Below are positions 21,445 to 23,658 of a stretch of DNA of 64,000 nt, one piece after another. The number at the start of each line of letters is the position of its first letter. Position 1 is the stretch's first letter. Both the position numbers and the translations under genes were made by a program. The DNA comes from Methanocaldococcus vulcanius M7 (GTDB lineage Archaea; AGJL01; Methanococci; Methanococcales; Methanocaldococcaceae). The stretch is taken from positions 1,583,928 to 1,647,927 of the forward strand of contig NC_013407.1 in NCBI RefSeq assembly GCF_000024625.1, read 5' to 3'. The notes below the pieces were generated by a model. It worked only from the letters and a program-made list of their open reading frames with translations. It was not told the DNA's origin and did no database searches.

Positions 21445-22218
21445 TTATTCTTCTTTTTCTTTTTTCTGTTCTTCTTCATCATCTGTTTTCTGTTTTAATT
21501 TGCTTTTAACGTCTTCGATAAGCTTTTTAACTTCTTCTGGATCTACCCTCTTAAATTGAGCATCTTTTACTGTAATTACACAAACATCAACATTCTCAGG
21601 ATTTATATCTTCATTTGCTTTTGCTAATGACTTTATAGCTAACTCTAATCCCTTATCTAAAGATATATCGTCATGATACTCTTTTTCAAGTAGTTCCATC
21701 ACTACTGGTCTTCCGCTACCTATTGCAGTTGCTCTATACTCTATCAAAGCACCACTTGGATCTGTCTCAAATAATCTCGCTTCATTTCGATCTATTCCTG
21801 CAATTAGCAGTGAGACACCAAAAGGCCTTACACCTCCATGTTGTGTATATGCCTGTTTAATATCACAGATCTTTTTTGCTAACATCTCAATTGATATTTC
21901 CTCTCCATAAGTTAATCTGTAAATTTGTGCCTCTAATCTTGCCCTATCTATTAAAACTCTCGCATCAGCTACTAATCCAGATGTAGCAGCAGCAACATGC
22001 TCATCTATTTGAAATATCTTTTCAATTGACCTGATCTTTACTAATTTGCTTGTTATTCTTCTATCAACTGCTAAAACAACTCCATCTTTACATGTGATCC
22101 CTACGGCTGTTGTTCCTCTTCTCACTGCTTCCCTTGCATATTCTACTTGATATAATCTCCCTTCTGGGCTAAATACTGTAATTGCCCTATCATAAGCACT
22201 TGGAGGGACTACTTGCAT
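21445..22218 (-). CDS. psmA: Proteasome subunit alpha
   Basis: Outer-ring subunit of the 20S proteasome (257 residues). The N-terminal alpha signature [20 protein letters not shown], which gates the pore, is intact; GTTAVGI and DRRITSKL follow. The charged C-terminal tail ([16 protein letters not shown]) is typical for methanogens. GGTGATAC precedes the start. It corresponds to MJ0591 by recollection. A 280-base AT-rich spacer separates it from SBDS, so a separate promoter for that group is likely. Confidence 0.97.
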
Positions 22219-22642
22219 ACTGTATCACCACTTTAAAGTATAGATTATCATTTTTTAATTTTTTATTTACTTCTGTTGTGTTATTAACCATAATCTCTCA
22301 GTTTATATAACAATTTATAAATTTATAAAATTCAAATTTAAAACGTTTTTAATTTTTTATGTTGCTAACTATTTGTATTGTAAGGTAAAGATATTAGTGG
22401 ATATTAATGAAAGATATTAAGCGTGATTATTTTTATATTTTATTTTTTTATTTTTTATTACACTCCTATTTTATAGTTCATTTTATACAATTTATTGTAA
22501 TTTATTATAAACTGTATAAATTGTTATTTTTATTCCTTTTTATTCTTTTTTGTTTTTTGTTTAAAATATTGATTGTGTTTAGTATTGCCACAACCATAAA
22601 TTATTTATATGAGTTTTCTAAAAGTATGTAGTGGTGATGAAG
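22219..22642. promoter_or_regulatory. Divergent spacer between psmA and the HesB-like selenoprotein gene
   Basis: About 420 bases of very AT-rich sequence with long T tracts. A TATA-like TTATTTATATGAG at about 22601-22613 faces right and would give a very short leader to the start at 22643, so there is little room for a 5' SECIS element. An open plus-strand frame here is low in complexity and is not supported. Confidence 0.45.
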
Positions 22643-22930
22643 ATGAAGAAAGTTAACATATCTGAAGAGGCGAAAAAGTTTATACTCGAGAAATTAAAAA
22701 AAGCAGGTAGGGATGAAGTTGTTATATACTTTGAAGGATTTGCATGAGGAGGTCCAAAGTTTGGAATTGCAATCGCCCACCCCAGTGAAAAAGATAAATT
22801 AATCTATGATGGAGAATTTAAACTCTATATTGACCCTATTGCAGATCAGTGGCTTGATGAAGTTGATATATCTTTAAAAAGATCAATTTTTGGGAAGTAT
22901 GTAAAGATAAGAGGAAGTAGCAGTTGCTAA
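22643..22930 (+). CDS. HesB/IscA-like selenoprotein with in-frame UGA (Sec35)
   Basis: The plus strand holds one 96-codon frame interrupted by a single TGA at 22745-22747. Reading it as selenocysteine gives IYFEGFA-U-GGPKFGIAIA. In HesB/IscA relatives the corresponding motif is CGGP, so Sec replaces a conserved Cys. The frame then continues for 60 codons with normal usage to TAA, ending GSSSC. HesB-like selenoproteins are known from Methanococcales, so readthrough is more likely than a nonsense mutation. The start follows GGTGATGAAG. The role is probably Fe-S or metal handling, but not proven. No SECIS is obvious nearby. Confidence 0.82.
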
Positions 22931-22950
22931 AAACATCAAATAGAAAAGAT

Positions 22951-23658
22951 CTATAACAAATACTCCAATATCTCTTTTGGATGCTTTAACACAACAACAT
23001 CTTCTAATTCCATCAACCTTTTTGTATTTTCTGCATCTACTTTTCTAACTCTCATTTTAATCTCTTTTCCCTCAATTATTGCACCATTCGGACATACTCT
23101 TTTACATCTTCCACAACCTAAACATTTAGACAAAACTATTTCTGGAAATCTTTTCCTTACAATGATCGCACCATTCGGACATGCTTCAACGCATTTTAAA
23201 CAACAATTACACTTTTTCCTATCAATAGAATAGGGAAGTTTGGTAATAACAACTCCCGCCTCATAATCAACAGGAACAATTAAAGATCTAACAAATCCCT
23301 TCCCTGCCTGAGCTATTGCATTAGTTATTAGCGTATCTGCTATTCCCCTAACAACTTTTGCGACTGTATTTCCAGTAGTTGGAGAACTTATTAGATAATC
23401 ATACTTTCCTAAGCTTAAACGGCCAGTTATTGGTGAAGAAGAGGGATGTTCTCTTTCTAAAATTATTTCTTCATAATACCCTCCTCCTGAAATATAGTTT
23501 AACTCTCCAAATAGTCCATACATTTTAATAACTTCCTCTCCTGCTTTAGAGATTAAAGTAGTAATCTTTACATCCTTTGATTCTTTTAACTCCCTCATAA
23601 CTTGGAAACTCTCTCTCAACAAATGACCTGCCCCAGTAATACACCAAACTATCTTCAT
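22951..23658 (-). CDS. Archaeoflavoprotein with two [4Fe-4S] clusters (MJ0208 family)
   Basis: The 235-residue protein joins a flavoprotein domain (KIVWCITGAGHLLRESFQVM, SSPTTGNTVAKVVRGIADTL) with a ferredoxin-like insert. The insert has two 4-Cys motifs, CNCCLKCVEACP and CLGCGRCKRVCP, from about residue 148 to 190. This matches archaeoflavoproteins related to dihydromethanopterin reductase, which pass electrons from ferredoxin to flavin. The substrate is undetermined. It lies 12 bases behind the phosphopantothenate synthetase gene, and converges with the HesB-like gene with only 20 bases between the stops. Confidence 0.85.
   Translation of the reverse strand: MKIVWCITGAGHLLRESFQVMRELKESKDVKITTLISKAGEEVIKMYGLFGELNYISGGGYYEEIILEREHPSSSPITGRLSLGKYDYLISSPTTGNTVAKVVRGIADTLITNAIAQAGKGFVRSLIVPVDYEAGVVITKLPYSIDRKKCNCCLKCVEACPNGAIIVRKRFPEIVLSKCLGCGRCKRVCPNGAIIEGKEIKMRVRKVDAENTKRLMELEDVVVLKHPKEILEYLL

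Follow-up and report, generated by a model that had tools for sequence, protein, structure and literature searches.

The gene studied here carries a TGA codon within an otherwise intact HesB/IscA-like frame of Methanocaldococcus vulcanius M7, and it raises the question of whether this codon is still read as selenocysteine (Sec), and with the help of which signal. The gene lies in a stretch of 64,000 nucleotides, further called the window, to which the positions refer unless another locus is named. The frame starts with ATG at 22643, is interrupted by TGA at 22745-22747 after 34 codons, and after 60 more codons ends with TAA at 22928-22930. With the UGA read through, the product would have 95 residues (MKKVNISEEAKKFILEKLKKAGRDEVVIYFEGFAUGGPKFGIAIAHPSEKDKLIYDGEFKLYIDPIADQWLDEVDISLKRSIFGKYVKIRGSSSC).

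22643..22930, + strand: HesB/IscA-like selenoprotein gene (TIGR01911), from the ATG to TAA frame, the family profile, orthologues and an AlphaFold2 model with IscA fold
22745..22747, + strand: in-frame TGA at position 35, the Sec position and equivalent of the first IscA Cys, from the TGA in 33/33 orthologues and profile alignment to HI1723 and AQ_1857
22925..22927, + strand: codon of the C-terminal Cys95, the sole Cys of the protein, from a 13-row alignment

The earlier note had described a HesB/IscA-like frame with a single in-frame TGA, and the family comparison bore this out. The NCBIfam profile TIGR01911 (HesB_rel_seleno) matched the window protein with 117 bits, against a curated cut-off of 66.35 bits, and the match spanned both sides of the TGA, while the Pfam profile PF01521 (Fe-S_biosyn) matched weakly, with a score of 19.2 below its cut-off of 26.3. 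The orthologue occurred in 33 of the 36 Methanococcales genomes, always with one TGA in frame, and only one, at the same position; no orthologue ended there, and all 33 covered the part beyond it. That the TGA could simply end one short gene, followed by an unrelated or dead frame, is refuted by this homology through the TGA in 33 genomes, and the second half also has no start codon of its own, so that this reading deserves practically no credence. The window gene resembles the Methanococcales members of TIGR01911 in sequence, length, the single UGA at position 35, the C-terminal Cys and the upstream synteny, and it has the UxGP motif with the in-frame UGA at the first IscA Cys. By these sequence features, it is a true member of the known HesB-like selenoprotein family. 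The earlier statement that such selenoproteins are established in Methanococcales also holds, because the family is known and occurs in 33 of the 36 genomes. The HesB-like protein has been listed as a selenoprotein before (PMC2933860, PMC13188914, PMC11097638), and in M. maripaludis HesB was identified by mutagenesis and 75Se labeling (PMC11097638).

The AlphaFold2 model of the window protein, computed with 13 orthologues as input, had a pLDDT of 90 and resembled IscA and SufA (TM-score 0.67-0.75, E down to 8e-6), so the protein is predicted to have an IscA fold. Profile alignment of the family to the IscA-like PDB chains HI1723 and AQ_1857 placed residue 35 at the first conserved Cys, in agreement with the proposal that the UGA occupies a conserved Cys position. 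On the other hand, a Cys-bearing homologue of hesB was not found among the 36 Methanococcales genomes searched, the conserved Cys being a feature of the IscA/HesB superfamily at large. The IscA, SufA and HesB Fe-S carriers of PF01521 share the predicted fold and have at their first Cys position what is UGA here, but they contain three cysteines (Cys ... Cys-x-Cys), whereas the window protein has Sec35 and the single Cys95. Both of these residues are invariant in the 13-row alignment. A tyrosine replaces the C-terminal Cys in the orthologue of G010 (locus L012), which is outside that alignment. Judging from the fold and the invariance of the two residues, full-length HesB would be a carrier of the IscA type that uses Sec35 and Cys95 as its pair of reactive residues.

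The genome has the equipment of a Sec-decoding organism, with tRNA-Sec bearing the UCA anticodon, SelB, SelD, and other selenoprotein genes with a SECIS; its selD gene itself contains UGA. It is well supported that the UGA encoded selenocysteine in the ancestor of this hesB, because the gene belongs to TIGR01911, the TGA is kept in 33/33 orthologues, the frame past the UGA appears to be under purifying selection (see below), and the genome encodes tRNA-Sec and SelB.

Nearly all orthologues have an inverted repeat immediately after the stop codon, CTAACCGG-GAA-CCC...GGG-A-CCGGTTAG, which is an archaeal SECIS with a GAA/A kink. When 19 distinct copies were aligned, 9 of the 11 pairs had changes on both sides, which are compensatory, and the share of paired cells was 95.6%, compared to 72.5% in shuffles. 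The decisive searches used the covariance model R2, complemented by an independent kink-turn scan, which accepted every kink of the form [N]AA/A or G that had 3 or more basal pairs. An earlier model, R1, used in a genome-wide scan, gave some false matches on strands antisense to tRNA genes (GAACCCCTACGGGACC; loci L042 and L045). With R2, a SECIS was found at 30 of 33 hesB loci with 19-45 bits, and it was absent at three, those of the window genome (G000), its sister G008, and G007. In the G017 orthologue (L025, 1788-1818) the kink is AAA instead of GAA, a variant that for fwuB of M. maripaludis is reported to be active, though more weakly so (PMC11881835).

The kink-turn scan recovered the SECISes of the other UGA genes of the window genome, with scores from -19.9 to -22.2 for vhuD, vhuU, fwuB and sps, and of -7.6 for fruA and fdhA. 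They are located behind the gene (3') in sps, vhuD, vhuU, fwuB and fruA, and on the 5' side in fdhA, where the kink is CAA/A, as previously described for M. vulcanius (PMC11881835). Hence, six other UGA genes of this genome keep a SECIS of the methanogenic archaeal, GAA/A kink-turn-like type, while hesB is without one. A further molybdopterin-type gene, in G007 (L121, G007:C1:1712384-1713391), contains a TGA in frame (STIUHGPTLM) and is followed by a good SECIS; it is probably a second FwdB-like selenoprotein gene of that genome.

In the window, the place of the missing element and the features around it are as follows.

22931..22950, + strand: 20-nt gap that separates the stops of hesB and the convergent gene, the SECIS site in 30 other orthologues, from SECIS searches and synteny
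22730..22759, + strand: GAA/A-kink SECIS-like candidate of -2.2 kcal/mol within the hesB coding sequence, its loop containing the UGA, from the kink-turn scan and synonymous recodings
22604..22611, + strand: candidate TATA box, from the sequence and archaeal promoter spacing

When R2 was run with filters off over the whole 64-kb window, the best match had 14 bits, consisted of A-T pairs only, and was 6 kb away from hesB. The Rfam search around hesB gave no relevant match, and the kink-turn scan near the gene gave nothing except the weak in-frame hairpin 22730-22759. The search for long-range GAA/A pairings gave just this candidate and one other, of poor G-C content. Displacement of the element was considered because the sps SECIS of the window genome has itself moved by about 70 nt through an insertion. 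This insertion lies between the sps stop and the SECIS (L086, G000 selD/sps, about 2570-2680 of the reverse complement), as seen in comparison with G008, and the SECIS is intact. No displaced hesB SECIS was found in the whole window, nor within the 14-15 kb that surround the gene in G007 and G008. On the 5' side, 22604..22611 is probably the TATA box of hesB, and archaeal promoter spacing would then give a leader of about 10 nt, which leaves no room for a 5' SECIS. The earlier note had judged that decoding as selenocysteine fits; this stands with regard to the family and the descent of the UGA, but the SECIS had been overlooked. A SECIS on the mRNA is a defining requirement of Sec insertion in archaea and another mark of TIGR01911 members, and it is present in 30/33 orthologues and absent here. 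Because of this, Sec decoding of hesB in the window genome cannot be assumed.

The comparison of gene order indicated how the element was lost.

21445..22218, - strand: proteasome alpha subunit gene, divergent upstream neighbour, which adjoins hesB upstream in 21/30 loci compared
22951..23658, - strand: dihydromethanopterin reductase-like flavoprotein gene (TIGR02700), downstream neighbour, new here in G000 and G008

Ancestrally, the downstream neighbour was an ADP-forming acyl-CoA ligase gene on the opposite strand, which has this place in 16 loci from several genera among those compared. G000 and G008 retain the same gene upstream, and TIGR02700 is the downstream neighbour in these two only; the flavoprotein gene is located elsewhere in G001, G004 and G007. 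The acyl-CoA ligase gene is found elsewhere in both G000 and G008, and its end is without a SECIS in both; no orphan SECIS was found beside the copy of the window genome (G000:C1:1319991-1321376). As shown by synteny, a rearrangement breakpoint at most about 20 bases from the hesB stop removed the 3' SECIS, and the loss predates the split of G000 and G008, because both have the same new neighbour and the ligase elsewhere. An assembly artefact, with the SECIS really present and lost in assembly, was considered since short inverted repeats are prone to mis-assembly, but it is very improbable, as the new neighbour is shared by two assemblies made separately, that of the window genome and that of G008 (MAG contig JAADDS010000005.1), and the sequence is continuous on both sides.

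The anatomy of the third locus is different. In G007 (L005, 1788-1806 of the reverse complement) a plain perfect 7-bp hairpin, GCTAACT-GGAA-AGTTAGC, is what is left of the SECIS, and the former downstream neighbour, the UGA and the frame are all kept. The G007 loss is probably a second, separate event. One loss shared with G000 and G008 is disfavoured by this different anatomy and by the intact SECIS of G004, the nearest relative of G007, although the hesB tree is too weak by itself to exclude it.

The part of the gene past the UGA has nevertheless been maintained without the element. Between the window genome and G008, whose HesB protein is 96% identical to the window protein, there are 7 synonymous and 0 amino-acid changes past the UGA, compared to 5 synonymous and 3 amino-acid changes before it, and the two genomes differ in 11% of positions over 15 kb. 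In a neutral simulation, the probability that 7 substitutions leave the protein unchanged was about 0.5e-4 to 1.5e-4. Thus, hesB past the UGA appears to be still under purifying selection, in a test that rests on 7 differences. Codons 15-43 around the UGA have no synonymous change, which by a rough estimate is not significant. The promoter stretch around 22604..22611 is identical in the two genomes. Taken together with tRNA-Sec, SelB and the UGA-containing selD, the 7:0 changes and the identical promoter favour continued production of full-length HesB after the SECIS loss, with the small count of changes in mind.

A second loss of a SECIS core was observed in the Sec-type hdrA gene. In G000 (L129, 3466-3605) and G008 (L127) an identical hairpin, GGCACC-GAAAA-GGTGC, is found, in which the apical stem and with it the SECIS core are gone, while G004 and G007 have a SECIS there. 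The two genomes differ past the hdrA UGA by 49 synonymous and 2 amino-acid changes, a sign of strong purifying selection, and because of this ratio the gene appears to be in use in both. The vhuD gene lies downstream of it, and the vhuD SECIS, about 1970 nt past the hdrA UGA, may be shared by the two genes. The situation of hesB is different, because the divergent proteasome alpha gene upstream makes it monocistronic, and between a divergent and a convergent gene it has no such helper SECIS.

These observations can be explained in several ways. The explanation that we favour, and to which we give somewhat better than even chances, is that the UGA is read through without a recognizable SECIS and that some full-length HesB is still made. 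In the ancestor of G000 and G008, a rearrangement right behind the hesB stop swapped the downstream DNA and removed the 3' SECIS, as synteny shows, and the UGA and the frame behind it have been retained since. The ribosome would then read the UGA at reduced efficiency, probably with the Sec-tRNA of the intact machinery, of which tRNA-Sec, SelB and SelD are seen in the genome. Reporter work speaks against this, since suppression in the absence of a SECIS stayed below 1% of wild type, a stem-loop lacking the GAA/A motif was inactive (PMC9622424), and both As of GAA were essential (PMC11881835). The same dependence on a SECIS is what could suggest a decaying gene, in which translation ends at the UGA as at any stop codon and yields only a 34-residue peptide of no use, and in which the remainder survives because the loss is recent. 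The loss of hesB would also be tolerated, because M. maripaludis remains viable when its hesB is disrupted (PMC11097638), and SECIS loss recurs in G007. Still, decay is rather unlikely, given the absence of amino-acid changes among 7 substitutions past the UGA in two SECIS-less genomes that are 11% divergent over 15 kb, and the still conserved promoter; it could be reconciled with the 7:0 changes only by a separate late loss in both lineages. Read-through is therefore preferred to very recent decay.

A cryptic or relocated SECIS of unrecognized form, such as the hairpin 22730-22759 or a structure with distant parts of the mRNA, is improbable. Among the loci scanned, the in-frame candidate is exclusive to G000 and G008, and it owes its opposing A to a change to CCA where most of the genus has CCT. 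However, it is weak at -2.2 kcal/mol, with A-U and G-U pairs in the basal stem in a presumed hyperthermophile, and the decoding ribosome would unwind an in-frame hairpin. As 26/400 synonymous recodings (6.5%) matched it in quality, it is probably due to chance. We regard as doubtful the stronger claim that the UGA is Sec in this lineage without a SECIS of known type, which would mean either that some genes can do without the archaeal SECIS or that there are signals of a second class.

An uncoupling of SECIS and UGA in evolution has a precedent in the "pseudo-SECIS" of Methanococcus voltae, which Boeck and Rother are said to have described in 2005. There, a SECIS relic remained after the Sec codon had changed to Cys, whereas the window hesB keeps the UGA and lacks the SECIS. 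The hesB selenoprotein itself is already known, and what is new is the loss of the SECIS while the frame is apparently under selection. A report of a SECIS-less hesB with a kept frame was not found in the literature searched, which comprised the main texts of freely accessible papers.

The absence of the SECIS together with the kept frame makes this locus a natural experiment on whether Sec decoding of UGA depends on a SECIS in archaea, organisms whose SECIS-binding factor is not yet identified (PMC11881835, PMC8211752). It also matters for annotation pipelines, which depend on the pair of UGA and SECIS. If full-length HesB is made, the gene would be an exception to the SECIS rule, and if it is not, it would illustrate the death of a selenoprotein gene, in which the SECIS disappears before the UGA.
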